From: Ochromonas danica
Taxonomy: Eukaryota; Sar; Chrysophyceae; Chromulinales; Chromulinaceae
Reading direction: 5' to 3'
NCBI GenBank assembly: GCA_015146655.1
Contig: VKHL01000054.1
Coordinates: 1-64,000 of the forward strand
DNA: 64,000 nt
A model generated the notes under the pieces. That model was not told the DNA's origin. It saw nothing but the letters and a program-made list of their open reading frames with translations, and did no database searches. Every line of letters begins with the position of its first letter. The first letter of the stretch is position 1. Below, in pieces: positions 24,826 to 52,828 of this stretch. The position numbers were made by a program, and so were the translations under genes.

Positions 24826-27800
24826 ATGAAGTGGCGGAATCTTTCGTATTTCCTTCTCTTAATCATTGACTTATGTTGCTATGATGCATTCAGAAACTAC
24901 TATATTAGAAGAATCATTGCTTCTACTCGTCGATTAGAACGTCGAGCTGTATCATCAGATTATTCTCCTCCCATCTCCTCCAACACTCCATCAACAAGAC
25001 AATGGAAAGACAAACAGACAAAAGTTACAGATAGTCTAATAAAATTTGAACGTAGATTGAACTACTTAGAGAAAATGAATCCTCAGAGAACATTAATAGA
25101 AGATTATGTTTCCACATTGAAAAATGTTGCTGCACTCCATCCTTTCCGTGACGCACAACCACTTAAGAATGCCTCTGAAATCATACTACCTCATATTCTT
25201 AGATTCCTTCCAACTATTCTCCAATTGAAACATCATAGTGAATTGATGTCCTATGTGCTTTGGTCATGTGGGCGTATGGAGATGCAATATGACCAATATA
25301 CAGCCCTCTGTACTGACCTTTTCTTGACATTTCTACATCAAAGTGACCATACAATGGAATCAGTTACACGTGGTGTTTATGGGGCAAGTAGAATGGGGTT
25401 TAAGCTGACATCTGGCAACCCTGTCTGGCCGTTGTTGAGAGATGCACTGACTGAGATTGCACCAGCAATGGATGCCCGTGGACTAGCTAATAGTATCTAT
25501 TCGTAAGTAGAAACCTAACATCTTACTCACACATAATATATTGCTGACTAATAGCCACTCCTTATAGATTGTCAACGATGAACATAACGGCGGAGTTAGC
25601 ACAGGAAGCAATGCCTGATTTGCTTGATCTTCTCTCATGTTTACTTCCTAAGATGGAAGCACAAGGAGTAGCAAATACTATATATGGACTAGGTTTTATG
25701 AAGTTTTCATATCGAGATTTCCCAAATGATCTCCAAGAGCAGATCGAAATAGTATTAGAACGTCAATTACCTCTAATGACTTCACAAGGATTGGCTAATA
25801 TTCTCTTTGGTTTAGGTGCAATGCAAGCTAATTTTAGAAATTTTGGAAGTGGTGTAAGACATCAATTGATCTTTTGTGTGATCAAGGAGATCTCGAATAT
25901 GTCTATTGTTGGTCTCTCAGGTACTCTTCGTGGTCTTGCTACCTTGCAAGTAGAATGGGATGATCTACCTTTTGAAGCTCAAGATCTCCTTCAAAAATCT
26001 ATTCAACAGGCAAGATGGAATAAGGAAATGACACCTCGAGGACTATCAAATATTTGTTATTCGTTAGGTAAGATGGGCGCGTTATGGTGTAAACTCTCTC
26101 GTGGTTGTCAGGAACATCTTTTGCAAGCATTCCATTATCATTGTCTCTCACTTTCTCCACAAGGACTTTCTAATACTTTATACGGGTTTAGTTTGATGCA
26201 ACTCCCATATAATTTGACTTATGAAAGCTGTCTACTAGAAGAAGAGGAAGAAGAAGAATTGGTTAAACTGCCACTTTCCTTTTCATTAGGATGGGAAAAG
26301 ATTCAACAGGCAATGCAATCTAAAGTGGTTCAAATGTCAAGTCAAGAATTAGCAAATGCTATCTATGCTCTTGGATTAATGGGTTGTCAATGGAAAGATC
26401 TTGATAGCACTACTACTTCAACCCTCTTAATAGCTCTCAATACTACTGTCTCCTTGATGAAACCTGAGGAACTAAGTATTACTTTATATAGTCTGTCTAA
26501 GATGCAAGTTTCATGGTTTAATGATTTACCACCAAGTTTACAAGATCATCTTCAAGTAGTATTGTTAAATTGTTTACATCAAATGAATGAACAAGCTATT
26601 GCAAATACTTTATATGGTCTAGCGATAATGGGACTCAAGTATACTAATCTCTTACCTTCTTTACATGGAAGTATTACTAAATCATTAAATTCAATGCAAA
26701 AGTTATCCCCACATGGAATGACAAATATTCTCTATTCTCTTGCTCTTTTAGGTGTCTATTGGCAGAATATTAATATCTATAATACAGATTGTATGCAGAA
26801 AGTGATTTATCGGATAATGTCACGTATGAATGAAAAAGGTATTGCTCATACTTTATATTCTTTAGCTCTTATGGATGCATCTTGGACGACTTTAACATTC
26901 CCAATGAAATTAGCATTATGCTCTGCTTTGAATCAAACTGCACCAAGTATGTTTATCCAAGAGGTAGCCAATACAATGTATGCATTGACTATACTATCCT
27001 TTGATAGTGACTATTCCATATCATATCATCTTCTATCTAAAGAAGCGGAGAAAAGTCATAACTCTACTTTGAATAACCTCAGTTATTCAGAACGTTTAGA
27101 TTTCCAAGAACGATTTGAAAGTAGTATGTTACTCTATTATGCTCATAGTCGTGTATTACAAGCTTTCAAAAGAGCAAAGGTGACTTATAATGTTACTGTG
27201 GAAGAAGAGATAGATCAGTTAATGTTAACAAACACTGTTAAAATGAAAGGTAGTAGTAGAGGAGGAGGTAATAATAATATGGATGAAATGATTGGTCAAG
27301 AGATTGATGAACAAATTGGTCATGGTATTCGTAATATGACATTATATGGAGATTCTTCAATATCAACAGAACAATTACATTTAAATCAATTTGCAATCTA
27401 TTTTGCTGCTATGAATAGTAATGAAAATACAAGAAGACTTGTAGTAGAAGTGTTAGGAGAAATGCCTAATATTGTTGCTCATTCTGATTTAACATTTTCT
27501 CGTGTACAACGAGTATTTCATGAAGAATTAGATCAACAACTTGCTGATCTTAGTCGACGACAACATCGTCATTCGACTAAATCTTCTAAAACAAATAGAA
27601 GTAAAGAGATGATAAATGCTAAACATGAAGAGCATGTTAATAGTAATAGTAATAGTAATAGTAATAGTAGCAGTTGTTCACATCGTTCTGGTTATAGTGA
27701 CTTTATAGTACAGAGTGAGTTTCCTGGATTACAAGGTATTTTCCCTATGGATATTGCAGTGTTTCTTTCTCCTGATGCCATTCAAAAGAGGTTACCAGCT

Positions 27801-28082
27801 CCATCAGAACGAAATTCTTCGTCTACATCTTCTTTGGACTTACCTTTAGCCTTTATTGAAGTGGATGGATTATCACATTATATTCAAACCAATAGCTATC
27901 ATACTCATCTCAAGCGAACTGATCGATTGAAAGAGTATCTATATAATAAAACCTATCCAGGAGTACCAATCTATCGCATTGATGTTGCTCTTGTTAACCG
28001 TCATAACTTCGAAGACATTACAAGAGAATTGGCTAAGAATATTGTGAAAAGGTCTGAGACCATTAAATTAGATCGGTGCTAA
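24826..28082 (+). CDS. RAP-domain protein with OPR-like repeats, probably plastid-targeted
   Basis: Two exons, 24826-25502 and 25568-28082, give 1063 residues. The N-terminus is a hydrophobic signal (SYFLLLIIDLCC) followed by YDAF/RNYYIRR: an AF-type cleavage site and a basic stretch, as in bipartite presequences of secondary red plastids. Residues about 200-720 contain repeated units with the consensus GLANTLYGLGxM, spaced about 35-45 residues, as in OPR/RAP proteins that bind organelle RNA. A polar Asn/Ser run lies near 920-930. The RAP domain closes the protein (FIEVDGLSHYIQ, KEYLYNKTYPGVPIYRIDV). A role in organelle RNA stability or processing is inferred from the family. Confidence 0.85.
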
Positions 28083-28103: not shown

Positions 28104-30195
28104 TTAAGTCAACCGTTTCTTCAACAAAGCATATGCTGCTCTAGGTACGTACTGCTTTGATATGAATGGTAAGTAATAAGCACGAGAGATGACAGTAAGG
28201 AGACGTGTTATTATCGGATGGTTGGATACCACCACCACACTCCCAATATAGGAAAGAACTGGTTGATAGCTGATCACTTCAAAGACTGGTTCTCCTGTAG
28301 CACACTTGACATTCTTATGGAAGTCGCTTTGTTCTAAATTGTTGTGATCCTGCTTGTTATACCATCTTAACAGTGTCTCTGAGCAGATCTTCTCATGTAA
28401 GACTGTTGAAAGGTCTGGAGATTCTATGGTAACCAATAGAAAGTCACATGATGAAGGTTGGACATATCGATCAGTTTCCTCTTGGTTCAGATTGTTGAAG
28501 TGTAAGTGAGGAGTGGCAGCAGTGTGATTTCCAAAAGCCTGTGGTAACAGTCCACCAAAACGATCACGAACATAATTTAAACGAACAGAACTATCCTGTA
28601 GAAAGAAGTGAGAAGGAAAGCGATGCCATTCCGCACCAATACAGAGAGAGCCAGGTCCTTGAAGATGGTGTTGAGCTTGTTGAAAGATCGAAATATAACC
28701 TGACGACATCAAGTGATTAGAATATCATCACCTACTACAGTATCAATTTATCATAGCCTACCAAAATAGTTCTGGTGGTTCGCTGCTAAACGACACGAGC
28801 CAAGAATAACAGAAGCGACAAGGAGTAGGCGATAGAAGTGAGTACGAAAGCATCCGCTTGACTCTTTGTCGACTGATGGTGTGCCTCCTCCACTTGCAGT
28901 CACCTTGACAAGAAGTTCATCTGCCAAGGTCAACAGCCCCCAACCACTATACGCTGCCAACAAACACAAAGGCCCATATATAGGGTAGAGAAAGCGCTCT
29001 TCCTACAGAGTCAAACAGGGATGTGTTAGTCAAGTCATGTTTAGTAAGAGAACCAGAAAGAGAAGCGATTTACTGACTTTATGGGGTCGTGAAAACAACA
29101 CTCCCAGCCAGAGAACTACACTAGCATAGAGAGTGAGTAGAATAATCTTGTTGGATGATGATTCTTTCTTAACTAAAGACAAGCAACCAATAGGAAACAT
29201 GCAGAATAGAGGCCAGGCAAGTTGACAGGTGAGTAAGAGATTCATGAGGTAGTAGCTCAGTGGCTCTACTCCATACAGCTCATCACCATTACCAGCTAAG
29301 GCATTGTAAAGGAGAATATTCAATGAAGGTACAGTCCTGACCAGTTCAATGAAGAAGAAGAAGTTAGACTAGTACAGTAGTAGACAAGGCACTAGAGGTA
29401 CAACACTTACCAAGTCTGGTAATAGTAATGATCGATTAGAATAGTTGGTATAAAGACTATAATAACAAGTACAAGACTTGAGAGACAAAATGTGATAACT
29501 TTAATTATACCACTATTGTAATGTTTGTGTGTGGTAGAGGTAGAGGAGGTTTGATAACAAGACCAAAGCATATGAAGACCAATAGGTAAGAAGAGTAATC
29601 CAACAAAAGGCCATCCTGTCCATAACACTGCTATACCACCCCAAAATATGGACCATAAGAAGGAATCATCTAACCAACATGATAATGATAACATGAAGAA
29701 AGTACCAGCTAAGGCGGAGGGTAAGAAAGCTGTGCTACTTAATAACAAACCAGGTGCACAAGTCATTAATCCAATGGCTAATCCTTGTATAGCTTTTGAT
29801 TTAAATGAAGACCATTGTAATCTTTTAGTTAAACTGTATAAAAAGGATGATTCAGCATAAGCAGATGATACACCTAATAGTAGACGAACAATATAGAACC
29901 AAATGATCTTTTGCTCTCTATTATTACCACATATTAATTGAAATACTTGTACTAACCAATAGATAGGTAGTAGGAAGGAATAAGATCGAATAGCATATTG
30001 TGGTGCATATTCCCAAGTTTGAAGACCATGTCCATATAAAAGATAATGTAAAGGTTCCCAATAACCATAGGGTTCATCTGTATCATCTATATGATTTAAT
30101 AAACCACCCAATACATTCAAGGTGGCAAAAATTAGAAATAATGACCAACGATTCATCGGCATCATATTTTCAAGATAATCATCGCCAGGTGGCAT
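28104..30195 (-). CDS. ALG9: Alpha-1,2-mannosyltransferase ALG9
   Basis: An ER membrane GT22 enzyme that adds mannoses to the lipid-linked oligosaccharide for N-glycosylation. Minus-strand exons are 30195-29411, 29336-29078, 29002-28762 and 28699-28104, 626 residues. It has DEPYGYWEPLHYLLYGHGLQ and TWEYAPQYAIRSY, the ALG9 hallmark with the loop-1 acidic residues. NILLYNALAGNGDELYGVEP follows in exon 2, and the next junction rebuilds PHK/EERFLYPIY, the conserved HKEERFL motif. GAEWHRFPSHFFL is in the last exon. Multiple hydrophobic helices fit the family. The stop codon is only 21 bp from that of the convergent RAP gene, so the 3' UTRs must overlap. Confidence 0.93.
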
Positions 30196-41582: not shown

Positions 41583-41853
41583 ATCAATGATTTGACTCGT
41601 ATTATGATGCTTTGATACCATCCCTCATTGTCGTTCACACTTATAACCTTCCATGCCATATACTATTTCTGTAGCTTATTACTAAAGTTAAGAAATCAAT
41701 GTAAAAATTGTAATGTTACTACTAGTACTATTTGACGACATTACTTTTGTTCAATACTACGTACAGTGTAGACCAGTCTCTAATTGTGAAAATCCTTTAC
41801 TGTTGATTTTAGAGGAATTACGTAAATGGTGCATGGGAGGATGAAGACAAAGT

Positions 41854-43812
41854 ATGACCATGATAGTGGACCTGTGCTTGTTGCTTTTATCCTCTTTGCC
41901 TCTTTTCCATGCTTTTCTTTGGACTAAGTCAAGATCTATTCTAATTCGTCCTTTAGCAGATAGCAATAAAGGTCATCATCATTCAATAGGAATTGATTTA
42001 GGCACGACCTATTCCCTCGTCACTATCATTGAAAACAAAAGACCTCATATCCTCTCAATTGATGGTAGTCGATTACTACCTTCTGTTGTTCATTATCAAA
42101 GTAATGGTCAAGTGTTAGTAGGTAAAGAGGCAGAAGAGATGTTAGCTGTGGATCCTTTGCATACTTTCTCTTCCATTAAACGACTTGTTGGACGAACTAT
42201 GAAAGAAGTGAAAGAAAGTGGTGATGATTTGATCTTTCGTAGACAACTCCTTCCTGTCTATCCTAGTAATGATAATAGTAACGACACTACTACAAGTCAT
42301 AGTACTAATAATAGTCATAGTAGTAGTAGTAGTAGTAGAAAGGGAATGGTATTATGTGGATTACGATGTGATGAAAAGATTTTATTACCAGAAGAAATTT
42401 TAAGTCAAATTGTGAAAAAACTAATACAACGAGCTAGTCAATATTATCAGAATGAAAATATTAATATTAATAATAATATTAATAAAAGAAGAAGAACAAA
42501 AATTACACATGGTGTAATTACTATACCAGCCTATTTCAATCATCAACAAATAGAAAGAATAGAACGTGCTGGTTTATTAGCAGGATTAGAAAAAGTGAAA
42601 TTATTAAAAGAACCAGAAGCTGCTGCTTTAGCATATGGATTTAATCTACATGATCCACAAGTAATTCTTGTCTTTGACTTAGGTGGTGGTACTTTTGATG
42701 TCTCTGTCTTAGAAGTAGGAGGTGGATTAGTTGAAGTCATCGCAACGAGTGGAGATGGTCATTTAGGAGGTGATGATTTTGATCAAGTTATTGTTGATTG
42801 GATATGGAATCATATGAATATAGAAGGAGAGTATTATCCACAAGAAGTAATGGATAAAATGAAAGGAGATGTTGTTGTTAAGAAAATAGTTCTTCGTTTA
42901 GCACAAGATGCTAAAGTTTCATTAAGTACTGCCCAACAGGTTACCATTCCAATCCAACCTATTCTATCAGCTGCTGTACAGAGAGATATTATTGGTCAAT
43001 CTTTTGACGAGTCTTTTCATGGTAAAAGAGAGTTAATATTGACTAGAAGAGGGTTCGAAAAGTCATGTGTTGGACTTCTTCAACGACTATTAAGACCATT
43101 ACGTGAAGCTGCTCTGCTAGCTGGTATTAATCTACCAGGTGAATCAGGACAACTTGCTGAATCTATTCTCAAAGATTGGGAAAGTGATGATGTAGACAAA
43201 GAAGAAGATGATGATCAAGAGAAAGATAGTGAAGTGGATATTCCTCTCAATCCTAATGATATTAGTAAAATGGATATGAAAGAGTTGGAAATAGCGCAAA
43301 AGTCAGGAAGAAGAGAAGCGAAAAGAAAGCAGAAGCTTAGAGGAGATAGTCGCAAAGAAATGAATCGTTTGCGTAAGACTACAGGAGATAACTCGTTAGA
43401 TTTATTTCCTGGAGGGCAACCATTGAATGATGTCATTTTAGTTGGAGGTGCAACACGCATGCCTTGTATTGTAAAGCTTGTGCGAACCTTAACACATATT
43501 GATCCAAAGCGAAATATTAATCCTGATGAAGCTGTAGCATTAGGAGCTGGAGTTTTGTCTGGGATATTAGATGGAAAGATTGATCAAATGCAAGTAATAT
43601 CAGCATGGCAAGCTGCTTGCTTACGAGCTATGCAAGAGCACGAAGGTGGGCTTGATTCGTTTTTAACACAGTCAGAACTCAAGGATAAGGAGAGCTCCCC
43701 TTCAACCCCAACCAAGGAACCCATCGTTGCTGAAGATATGGTCAAGACATCTTCGGAGGAAGGAAAGCGTTCTTCCGTGTTCAAAGCTTTGCGTAAAGAC
43801 AGGAAGAAGTGA
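41854..43812 (+). CDS. Hsp70-like ATPase domain protein without substrate-binding domain, plastid-type presequence
   Basis: A single exon, 652 residues. The N-terminus is a signal peptide ending SLPLFHAF/LWTKSRS (HAF at 19-21 followed by basic/Ser residues), a plastid bipartite presequence by the ochrophyte rule. The Hsp70 nucleotide-binding domain starts near residue 45: IGIDLGTTYSLV (phosphate 1), KEPEAAALAYGF, VFDLGGGTFDVSVLE (phosphate 2) and ILVGGATRMP (adenosine). Two low-complexity inserts interrupt it: a Ser/Thr/Asn run near 140-165 and a charged Asp/Glu/Lys insert near 445-515. After LGAGVLSGILDG the protein runs about 80 residues of disordered sequence and stops, so the usual 200-residue substrate-binding domain is absent. 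HSPA13/STCH has the same architecture and is an alternative reading, which would place it in the ER. Confidence 0.85.
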   Translation: MTMIVDLCLLLLSSLPLFHAFLWTKSRSILIRPLADSNKGHHHSIGIDLGTTYSLVTIIENKRPHILSIDGSRLLPSVVHYQSNGQVLVGKEAEEMLAVDPLHTFSSIKRLVGRTMKEVKESGDDLIFRRQLLPVYPSNDNSNDTTTSHSTNNSHSSSSSSRKGMVLCGLRCDEKILLPEEILSQIVKKLIQRASQYYQNENININNNINKRRRTKITHGVITIPAYFNHQQIERIERAGLLAGLEKVKLLKEPEAAALAYGFNLHDPQVILVFDLGGGTFDVSVLEVGGGLVEVIATSGDGHLGGDDFDQVIVDWIWNHMNIEGEYYPQEVMDKMKGDVVVKKIVLRLAQDAKVSLSTAQQVTIPIQPILSAAVQRDIIGQSFDESFHGKRELILTRRGFEKSCVGLLQRLLRPLREAALLAGINLPGESGQLAESILKDWESDDVDKEEDDDQEKDSEVDIPLNPNDISKMDMKELEIAQKSGRREAKRKQKLRGDSRKEMNRLRKTTGDNSLDLFPGGQPLNDVILVGGATRMPCIVKLVRTLTHIDPKRNINPDEAVALGAGVLSGILDGKIDQMQVISAWQAACLRAMQEHEGGLDSFLTQSELKDKESSPSTPTKEPIVAEDMVKTSSEEGKRSSVFKALRKDRKK

Positions 43813-44320
43813 GAAATGTGTTTAAATTTATACATACAATGAAGCTGCCACCTGAACCGTACATGCAACTTCTCTTTATCTCTCAATGAATAGAATACAA
43901 TCACCAAAGCAAAATAATAGATGATTTTGCACGGTGGCTCGTTCAAACCATTTTTTTGTTGTGAGACTATGAAAACTACAACAAAACATAGCATCTCAAC
44001 ATATCTTCGAATCGCAAAGCATCTCAACAACTCACAAACTCAGATACCAACATGAATGAATGTAATCAAATCGCGCGGTGCTACTATCTACATGATCTCT
44101 ATTTCAGCTACTGACGCTGACTTTACTCTCTTGTGAGGGTCGAATGAAAGGTGAGGGAGAACTTGTGATCGCATGGCTATCATGAGACTATCTTCAACAA
44201 TGTTCTCAGTCATTCGCACCTTTCACCTCGTCGTTCCCTCTTCTTTCACATTCACACCCAGCATACCTAACAAGAACAAGAAAAACAAACTCATGATAAT
44301 ACAGGTACTATACTTGATCG
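43813..44320. other. Convergent 3' region of Hsp70-like and selenoprotein genes
   Basis: 508 bp holding both 3' UTRs. On the minus strand it must contain a SECIS element if the selenoprotein call is right. The best stem-loop I see is listed at 44145-44225. Confidence 0.4.
44145..44225 (-). promoter_or_regulatory. SECIS-like stem-loop candidate in 3' UTR of the selenoprotein gene
   Basis: On the minus strand, 96-176 nt after the stop, TGAAAGGTG (44225-44217) pairs with CACCTTTCA (44153-44145). Inside it, GAGAAC (44207-44202) pairs with GTTCTC (44162-44157). An ATGA (44213-44210) sits between the two helices on the 5' side, where a SECIS quartet belongs. The opposite strand lacks the expected GA and I see no clear AA apical loop, so this is not a canonical SECIS. 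Confidence 0.25.
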
Positions 44321-44593
44321 CTATTTAAGAGCAATGACACGTTTAATCTCTTCTATACAGGTTGAACGCCTTGCAGGATTCTTCCTGAAGAGATTTCTTT
44401 GATCTGTTTGCCATAACACTACACCATATAAATCTGTGATCTTCACATATATAGGAAAACTATCAAATCTATGTGCAATTATTTCTGCATTAGGATGAAC
44501 AGCCAAGATTGCACTACGAACAGCATGCAACTCTTGACTGCCCCCATCTCAACTTGAACAATACTCTACGATAAACTTCTTATTATGTCTCAT
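44321..44593 (-). CDS. Probable selenoprotein, SelH/SelW-like (Rdx family), TGA read as Sec
   Basis: From ATG 44593 the frame reads MRHNKKFIVEYCSS, meets TGA (44551-44549) and continues without interruption to a TAA at 44321: 90 residues if TGA is selenocysteine. Cys12 and Sec15 form a CxxU redox motif directly after a beta-strand (FIVEYC), the position of CxxU in Rdx thioredoxin-like selenoproteins (SelH HCTSU, SelW YCxxU). The part after the TGA looks genuinely coding: AILAVHPNAEI, FPIYVKITDLYGVVLWQ and RKNPARRS resemble the strand-helix-strand and LW..I.K.PR pattern of SelH. TGA is an ordinary stop in neighbouring genes, so general reassignment is unlikely. The alternatives are a pseudogene, a sequencing error or an unseen splice. 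Confidence 0.7.
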
Positions 44594-45545
44594 GATGACT
44601 TGGAATGTGATGCAGTGTGAGAGGTCAGCAGAGAAGAGTGAGTCAATCAAGTAATAAGTCAATGAGTGAATGTCAATGAGTAAAGCCAAAGTGAAGGAAT
44701 CAATATCTTTAAGAGGTAGAGTAGTAAGTGAATCCAAAGTAAGGAAAGACTGGAAATGAAAACTGAAAAATGTACAACAAAAGAAGACTTAAAGAGACAA
44801 AACGGAATGAAAAAGAGGTTGAATGAGCAGAGGATGAGTGGCCGACACCTCCTTTTGTCGTCACCTCCTCCCACCTCACCCTCAACTCCACTCCACTTCG
44901 TCCTCACCTCCTTATTGAAAAACTGGTTTCTCCGCAGGTGCAGTGTGTTTATTGCGGCAGAGTTATGAACAACAGAGAGAGAGAGGAGGAAAATGTGGTT
45001 TTGGGGTCATTTTCTTTGAAAGGACAAGTGATCTTCTTGACGATGTTGGATAGGCTACCTTGCCAGTTCTCACCGCCAATTCATTTAGCATGGGATGTTT
45101 GATTCCCTACCGCTGCCTACAGTAACCTTGACGATCGGAAGTGGTTTGAGTGGTCACATGTGATCTTGCTAACTAAAACCACTAGTTGGTAAGATATCCT
45201 TAAACGCAAGTGCGCCACGGCTGAAATTAAAAATCAATATGGCAAGAGGAGGGAATCAAGGTAGTCTAATCTGGTTTCTTCTACGGCGGTCTCTGTCTTT
45301 GTTGCTGAAGCTAATGTATTCATTGAGAGCAATGAAGATAATAGTCTGCTAATTGGCGAGGAGTTTGGGTTATTTTAGGATAAGCGTGCTTACTGGACGT
45401 TGCCACCGTCACACAGCATGAGAGAGCGAGAGAGAGAGGAATAAGAAGGCTGGTATCTAGGAATGATACTAATGGCAAATATCATATCAATATAAACTAC
45501 GAATATCAAAACAATACCATAGGTGAATAATAAAGACGTCTTTTA
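44594..45545. other. Spacer between selenoprotein gene start and TRPC4AP end
   Basis: About 950 bp with GA-repeat patches (44972-44990 and 45422-45440). Open frames here are low-complexity and I do not support a gene. Confidence 0.4.
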
Positions 45546-51520: not shown

Positions 51521-52828
51521 TTAATATGAAGACAGCTTCATGTAGAATGCATCTCTAATTCCATGGAGCTTTTGTCCAGGTAGAGCACCATTGGTTGATC
51601 CCGTGATATAGATGAAATCCTCATCATCCAAAGCCACACCCAATGCACGGTCATCACCATCCGTACCAAATAAGGCTGTTGATAAGATGCTTCCTGCCGC
51701 ATCATATGTTTGTACAAAGACATCATTGCCGCCATGATTGATCTGCTTGCTGTCGAAGGATCCATCAGTATAGCCCACCACATGAATATAGTTCTTACTA
51801 TCGATGACTAAGCTCATAGCATAATCAGAATTGTTACTTCCTGCTTCTTTTACATAAAGAAGCATACCATTGTTGTCGTATTTTAACAACAAGACATTAC
51901 CATTATTCTCTATGTTACCATTAACCAATCCTGTGATATAGACATTATTAAATGTATCAAGCACAAGGTCATTGCCTTGATCAAAGCCTTTCGTTCCAAA
52001 CAATCGTGTGAATAGAACATTACCACGTTCATTCAACTTCATCAAAAACAAGTCACTATTCCCAATATAGGACTGATCGTGTAGAGAAGCAAAGGTGTAA
52101 CCCGTGATGAAGACGTTTCCTTCCCTGTCCACAGCCAGACTTACGGCAAAATCATCTCCAGAGCTGCCGAATTGCTTCACCCACAGTTGATTTCCAGTAG
52201 AATCAAGCTTCGTGAGGAAGAAGTCTGATTCTCCGAAGTAAGGTTGTCCCTCCAAAGAGCCTTCCACTATGCCCGTGAGATAGACATGTCCTGCTCTCTT
52301 GGAGTCAATGGCCACGGCACTTCCCTCGTCATAGTCGTTCGTGCCGGTCTGTTTATAGAAGACCTTGGTACCATTACTTGCCAGCTTCATTAAGAAGATG
52401 TCGTAGTTATTAGTGCCCGCTAGGTCATCGCCGACGCAGACCGCACCAGTCATATAGACCGCACCGTCGGCCATTTCGTCCACGACCAAGTCATTGACAA
52501 AGCCTTTCATATCAACCCTCGGGAACTTGGAGAAGGTGGCAGGAGTCTTGGCTTGTGTCTTGGAGAAGATAGACAGGGACGAGGAAAATACCTGCCCCAC
52601 ACCCTCTAAGTTGGGGGGAGATCTCTCCTCACCAGCTACGGTGATCACACCAGTTGAAGAGACAATAGCGATAGCGGAGGCACTGACCAGTGAATCAGCA
52701 TCCCCACCAAACTGGAGAGCATCAATCACTTTGTGGTCCCCCACACTCTCCACGAGGAAAACTGATGAAAAAATCATCAGCAAGCAACAGATCCAACCTC
52801 GTATTTTGATTTGATTCGCCATCTTCAT
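51521..52828 (-). CDS. Secreted SBBP-repeat beta-propeller protein
   Basis: A single exon, 435 residues. The signal peptide is GWICCLLMIFSSVFLVESVG. From about residue 110 there are six or seven repeats of roughly 50 residues with the pattern D..GN.Y.TG...G, D.FL.KL...G...W...FG, typical of SBBP (beta-propeller) repeats: VYLTGIVEGSL, VFITGYTFASL, VYITGLVNGNI, IHVVGYTDGSF and IYITGSTNGAL close successive blades. Such proteins are common in bacteria and planctomycetes and scattered in algae; function is unknown, probably extracellular binding. The absence of introns and a mostly bacterial family could mean ancient gene transfer, which I cannot test here. It is divergent from the IQ gene. Confidence 0.8.
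   Translation of the reverse strand: MKMANQIKIRGWICCLLMIFSSVFLVESVGDHKVIDALQFGGDADSLVSASAIAIVSSTGVITVAGEERSPPNLEGVGQVFSSSLSIFSKTQAKTPATFSKFPRVDMKGFVNDLVVDEMADGAVYMTGAVCVGDDLAGTNNYDIFLMKLASNGTKVFYKQTGTNDYDEGSAVAIDSKRAGHVYLTGIVEGSLEGQPYFGESDFFLTKLDSTGNQLWVKQFGSSGDDFAVSLAVDREGNVFITGYTFASLHDQSYIGNSDLFLMKLNERGNVLFTRLFGTKGFDQGNDLVLDTFNNVYITGLVNGNIENNGNVLLLKYDNNGMLLYVKEAGSNNSDYAMSLVIDSKNYIHVVGYTDGSFDSKQINHGGNDVFVQTYDAAGSILSTALFGTDGDDRALGVALDDEDFIYITGSTNGALPGQKLHGIRDAFYMKLSSY

Follow-up and report, generated by a model that had tools for sequence, protein, structure and literature searches.

Does a short reading frame that is interrupted by a single TGA in the chrysophyte Ochromonas danica encode a selenoprotein? 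The question arises on the minus strand of the window, by which we mean the whole stretch of 64,000 nucleotides that was analysed, where 90 codons between an ATG and a TAG form a frame with one in-frame TGA (Table 1). An earlier note on this DNA had described a 90-residue product with the TGA in a CxxU motif, at the U of CSSU behind a FIVEYC strand, and both statements hold exactly, including the coordinates and the strand: the TGA is codon 15, and CSSU stands directly after FIVEYC. Selenocysteine (Sec) occupies the second redox residue of CxxU in SelW, SelT, and SelH, and the location of the TGA at the Sec/Cys position of this fold family is therefore an argument for selenocysteine; eukaryotic selenoproteins likewise have an in-frame TGA where a redox residue is conserved. 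Collectively, the evidence described below suggests that the locus probably encodes a divergent SelH-like Rdx selenoprotein, into which Sec would be incorporated at this codon.

Reading frame, coding signal, and neighbouring genes

The translation of the frame is MRHNKKFIVEYCSS-TGA-DGGSQELHAVRSAILAVHPNAEIIAHRFDSFPIYVKITDLYGVVLWQTDQRNLFRKNPARRSTCIEEIKRVIALK-TAG. The in-frame stop upstream is a TAA at 44791, downstream of which the ATG at 44593 is the sole in-frame ATG, and the part behind the TGA contains no Met, so that translation of the long half of the frame could not begin at a separate ATG. The downstream neighbour, at 41845-43812 on the plus strand, is a convergent HSP70 gene that is terminated by TGA; its end at 43812 leaves approximately 500 nt for the 3′ UTR of the SelH-like gene, unless the two genes overlap.

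Table 1. Positions of the features discussed at the SelH-like locus (numbering of the window)
Feature	Position	Strand	Basis
SelH-like Rdx reading frame, 90 codons, read through one TGA	44321-44593	-	Frame, coding signal
Proposed selenocysteine codon (in-frame TGA, codon 15)	44549-44551	-	Translation
CxxU motif (CSS-TGA) at the predicted beta strand 1/helix 1 junction	44549-44560	-	Translation and model
Possible 47-nt 3′ UTR intron, unproven	44267-44313	-	GT...polypyrimidine...AG
Candidate non-canonical SECIS core, weak evidence	44191-44238	-	Hairpin scan and folding

The bare pattern of a CxxU motif in an open frame is not significant against chance. When it was defined as an ATG, at least 8 codons, CxxU, and then at least 60 more open codons, it was present once in the window, namely in the SelH-like frame, compared to a mean of 0.5 and a maximum of 2 in 40 windows generated by a first-order Markov model. 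The codon usage is more informative. Codons 16-90 have a codon log-odds score of 0.152, which 51% of 144 chunks of long open reading frames (ORFs) do not exceed and which none of 75 open segments in the wrong frame, taken from inside long ORFs, can reach. Among the 39 stop-interrupted frame pairs of the window (22 with TGA, 12 with TAA, and 5 with TAG), the SelH-like frame ranks first by a wide lead, the next score being -0.019. That runner-up is itself interrupted by TGA (28448-28720, plus strand, 73 codons after the TGA) and shows no signs of a gene. The signal is distributed unevenly along the SelH-like frame: it peaks at codons 16-37 (0.349), the most coding-like part, and is near zero (-0.012) at codons 65-90. 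The sequence had previously been considered protein-like on both sides of the TGA and in the same phase. This can be maintained for the phase and for the part after the TGA, which scores like long ORFs, but not for the 14 codons before it, which are not coding-like on the codon measure (-0.098).

TGA serves as a normal stop of neighbouring genes, as had also been noted; three of the 24 long open segments in the window end in TGA, the HSP70 gene included, while 11 end in TAG and 10 in TAA, making TGA the least used stop. A general use of TGA as a sense codon was rejected on the basis of these three segments and of a histone deacetylase domain, covering profile positions 1-296 of 298, whose frame is free of TGA. 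Two further genes of the window were recorded. The region 25569-28082 (plus strand) encodes a protein with many NTLYGL-type repeats, which gives a weak FAST-kinase-like match below the cut-off and which resembles algal repeat proteins, and the region 51521-52828 (minus strand) encodes a secreted-looking protein with SBBP beta-propeller repeats. Introns of the GT-AG type are present in the importin gene of the window, in which three were read with lengths of 60, 90, and 113 nt, one of them with the donor GTTGGT. Directly past the TAG stop of the SelH-like frame, the 47-nt stretch GT...TTTGTTTTTCTTGTTCTTGTTAG resembles a short 3′ UTR intron.

Predicted fold and family assignment

The AlphaFold2 model obtained from the single sequence, with no alignment, has a pLDDT of 81.8 and a pTM of 0.72, with the highest pLDDT blocks at residues 21-40; two of the five models were poor (pLDDT 48.5 and 45.8). 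As a control, one 90-codon stretch of the window in the wrong frame gave a pLDDT of 40.7 and a pTM of 0.28. The predicted topology is beta-alpha-beta-beta-beta-alpha (E6-12, H18-32, E37-43, E48-53, E59-64, and H73-88), which is the thioredoxin-like arrangement of Rdx proteins, and provided that the TGA codes for Sec or Cys, the CSS-TGA motif (residues 12-15) lies between the first strand and the first helix, as in Rdx proteins. In a Foldseek search against the PDB, nothing was found at E <= 0.001; SelW-like chains account for 16 of the best 50 of 1257 matches, with probabilities of 0.99-1.00, and the top 16 query TM-scores among the matches listed (0.52-0.60) all belong to them. These chains come from the entries 2oka, 2obk, 3dex, 2fa8, 2p0g, and 2ojl. 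The PDB names 2fa8 and 2p0g as selenoprotein W-related and 2obk as a putative Se-binding protein, and the remaining three (2oka, 2ojl, and 3dex) are SelW-like as well. From the fold and the motif together, an Rdx-like class is well supported.

Sequence profiles see less of this relationship. Pfam returned no family at E <= 10, the Rdx profile (PF10262) included, NCBIfam contained no family for the 90-residue protein, and a sequence search of the PDB gave no credible match, three polybromo-1 sequences at E 1 being taken as chance. Since PF10262 does not detect the protein, we file it as Rdx-like and divergent rather than as a Pfam member. The Rdx assignment of the earlier note is therefore upheld by an Rdx-like predicted fold in which the TGA occupies the U of CxxU, but not by recognition through PF10262.

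Among five sequences compared, human SELENOH is the closest. With Cys at the TGA site, it aligns over residues 8-88 of the window protein, CxxU on CxxU, at a score of 48 that none of 2000 shuffles reached; 480 overlapping chunks of ORFs from the window all score lower, the best of them at 42. With X at the TGA site, the match has a p of 0.0045. The query letters of SELENOH, as well as those of mL43 and NDUFA2 used below, are assumed to be correct; the SELENOH query scores PF10262 at 6.5e-10 in Pfam. The match is not significant (p 0.17) when just the residues after the TGA are compared with SELENOH, the CxxU region being removed, and neither human SELENOW (p 0.09) nor SELENOT (p 0.11) matches significantly against shuffles. 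In hhalign comparisons, an alignment of SELENOH, SELENOW, and MIEN1 gave the best probability of all (28%), with none of 60 shuffles as good; SELENOH alone gave 5%, with one of 60 shuffles as good. Against bacterial SelW-like profiles, the window protein beats 60 of 60 shuffles, but just 11-12 columns around CxxC are aligned, and the bacterial Rdx profile was set aside as too distant a comparison. The loose SelH match and divergent membership proposed previously thus stand as far as SELENOH is the closest of the five, whereas the part after the TGA does not carry the likeness by itself.

Relatives were also searched for in viral and prokaryote contigs, in which 6 and 63 pattern matches, respectively, were obtained and none was confirmed; searches of the viral contigs with SelW-like and SELENOH queries gave 12 and 6 pattern matches, respectively, again with none confirmed. 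A bacterial SelW-like gene (locus L111, ~396-178, minus strand) has an in-frame TGA in C-G-A-TGA and scores 50 bits against Pfam Rdx with this one TGA; it is probably a bacterial selenoprotein in its own right. Animal SelH has a basic, AT-hook-like N-terminal extension. In the window protein, 14 residues precede the TGA codon and no such extension is found, although an extra upstream exon is possible. SelH-like is the best label for the protein, formal membership being unproven.

Search for a SECIS element

The SECISearch rule, as given in PMC2375036, combines NTGA, 10-13 nt, AA/CC, 15-39 nt, and GA with energy limits. Our own implementation of this pattern, with extra stem filters and uncalibrated on known SECIS elements, yielded 20 raw matches from 44330 to 42800, none of which passed, and thus no canonical SECIS within ~1.5 kb; over the whole window, 12 sites pass on both strands. 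Rfam, at gathering and E-value thresholds, detected no SECIS either, and no tRNA was found in the window. The SECIS for which the earlier note had suggested a search in the 3′ region accordingly turned up in neither search, and what the region offers is one non-canonical candidate.

The candidate is composed of GGGA (44238-44235), an unpaired AAA (44223-44221) that sits 11 nt above the core, a mini-stem (44220-44208), and a 3′ GA (44192-44191), and its lower stem extends to 44267/44167. The layout is that of type II, with a stem of 9 layers (6 pairs, one mismatch, and 2 pairs) and a 3-pair mini-stem, and the hairpin is the unconstrained minimum-energy fold of a 104-nt stretch. Its stability is unremarkable (z -0.27), and longer sequence contexts favour other folds, the pair probability being at most 0.03 in five contexts. 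The same hairpin scan over the whole window and both strands gave 2 GGGA and 19 NTGA sites. None of 600 shuffled UTRs contained a GGGA site at the energy of the candidate, a count that is flattered because the GGGA class was one of several SECIS definitions applied successively; fairer counts are 26 of 600 for a site of either class (GGGA or NTGA) and 83 of 600 for any site at a weaker limit. The GGGA hairpin can be regarded as the best available SECIS candidate, weakly matched and a candidate only.

Two other hairpins were rejected: an ATGA...TGAT hairpin (44213-44181), which has a stem of 5+3 pairs and AA at 15 nt above the core instead of 10-13, and a long hairpin (44294-44231), which lacks an apical AA. 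A relaxed scan of 1.5 kb returned 8 rows for 3 locations, namely the GGGA site plus two sites with TTGA, a result that was unchanged when the possible 3′ UTR intron was spliced out and that says little because the background is ~4 sites per kb.

Alternative explanations and comparison with known systems

An Rdx-type gene that encodes Cys here could have acquired the TGA through a base error during assembly or through a nonsense mutation of recent origin, the latter leaving a pseudogene. The TGA is one base away from the Cys codons TGT and TGC, and the failure to find a canonical SECIS by Rfam or by the SECISearch pattern to ~1.5 kb would be expected; however, such a change would have struck the one codon of 90 where the fold family carries Sec, in a frame that is otherwise intact and has normal codon usage in codons 16-90, which makes this explanation unlikely, if the most serious of the rivals. 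Splicing around the TGA, or a frame of several exons, for example with a donor that overlaps or precedes the TGA (GTTGAG at 44553) and an acceptor downstream (44485), appears less probable still. GT-AG introns do occur in genes here, as in the importin gene, and the TGA could be excised through any of 35 GT...AG pairs that are in frame, span 40-400 nt, and have their donor inside the ORF, one of which ends at the 44267 acceptor with a clear polypyrimidine tract. Use of that acceptor, however, would excise nearly the whole ORF, the acceptors within the ORF have no polypyrimidine tract by eye, and introns longer than ~65 nt would remove most of codons 16-37, where the coding signal peaks and helix 1 is predicted. 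Introns, a pseudogene, or a base error fit the data less well than a selenoprotein does.

It is also quite improbable that the frame encodes a protein of the L51/S25/CI-B8 type (mL43, NDUFA2), with a TGA near a Trp site that is an error. The fold is shared, as is the YC..GGSS start, and complex I and mitoribosome chains, taken to be of this type, make up many of the best 50 of 1257 Foldseek matches, including a complex I subunit in the first row by E-value. Their TM-scores are nonetheless 0.35-0.50, below those of the SelW-like chains among the matches listed. Arabidopsis mL43 aligns at a score of 34 (p 0.04), but several other ORF chunks of the window surpass this score (up to 42), and three of 60 shuffles reach the hhalign score against mL43/NDUFA2; NDUFA2 gives no alignment (p 0.85), PF05047 is not matched in Pfam, and by eye helix 1 is shorter and beta4-alpha2 longer than in mL43. 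Least probable of all, by a small step, is a chance open frame that encodes no protein. The expected 0.5 CxxU frames of such size per random window and the lack of a homologue among viral or prokaryote contigs would agree with it, but the coding score, the confident alignment-free fold, and the similarity to SELENOH argue against it.

In the preferred selenoprotein reading, the locus would be a small single-exon frame whose product, a thioredoxin-like redox protein of 90 residues, belongs to the Rdx kind (SelW/SelT/SelH/MIEN1) and is nearest to SelH. UGA would be decoded as selenocysteine with the assistance of tRNA-Sec, EFsec, SBP2, and a 3′ UTR SECIS, giving a CxxU selenolate-thiol pair, and the protein may act as a thiol/selenol oxidoreductase. 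A more far-reaching version, in which the gene represents a lineage-specific branch of Rdx selenoproteins beyond the Pfam profile with Sec insertion by a GGGA-core type II SECIS, is conceivable but doubtful. If it were true, the variant element would be more widespread than apicomplexan parasites. Confirmation of the gene would show protist SelH-like Rdx selenoproteins to be more varied in sequence than is known, and the GGGA hairpin offers a case in which a non-canonical SECIS can be tested. Such genes are easily missed, because a standard reading gives no more than 14 codons and the protein escapes the Rdx profile of Pfam.

GGGA-core SECIS elements occur in Toxoplasma and Neospora. The candidate hairpin shares its GGGA core, in place of AUGA, with the Toxoplasma gondii SECIS, but differs in being a predicted candidate with a weak stem and competing folds. 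According to PMC11431864, the Toxoplasma element is non-canonical and active with SELENOH. As to distribution, PMC7539508 describes algae as selenoprotein-rich with SELENOH among the most widespread families, brown and yellow-green algae as having few selenoproteins, and eustigmatophytes as having none, and it locates the Sec of SelW to the second of the motif's two redox residues; a 2007 listing in PMC2375036 gives SelH for Ostreococcus and Drosophila but not for the diatom Thalassiosira.

Among protein families, mL43 and NDUFA2 resemble the window protein in the general thioredoxin-like fold and the YC..GGS start, but their TM-scores are lower, their sequence match is weaker, and the sequences compared have no CxxC/U. 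SelW and bacterial SelW-like proteins share the predicted fold, a comparable length, and CxxC or CxxU after beta1, with an identity of just 12-17% in the structural alignment to the SelW-like chains (2oka, 2obk, 2fa8, 2p0g, 2ojl, and 3dex). SELENOH differs in its basic N-terminal extension and in a GPPRKLKFP stretch that, by eye, is not retained in the window protein, but the two have in common CxxU after strand 1, a Pro before beta2 that is, by eye, equally far from U, a last strand that contains a Leu-Trp pair, and a similar last helix (VVEEL/CIEEI).
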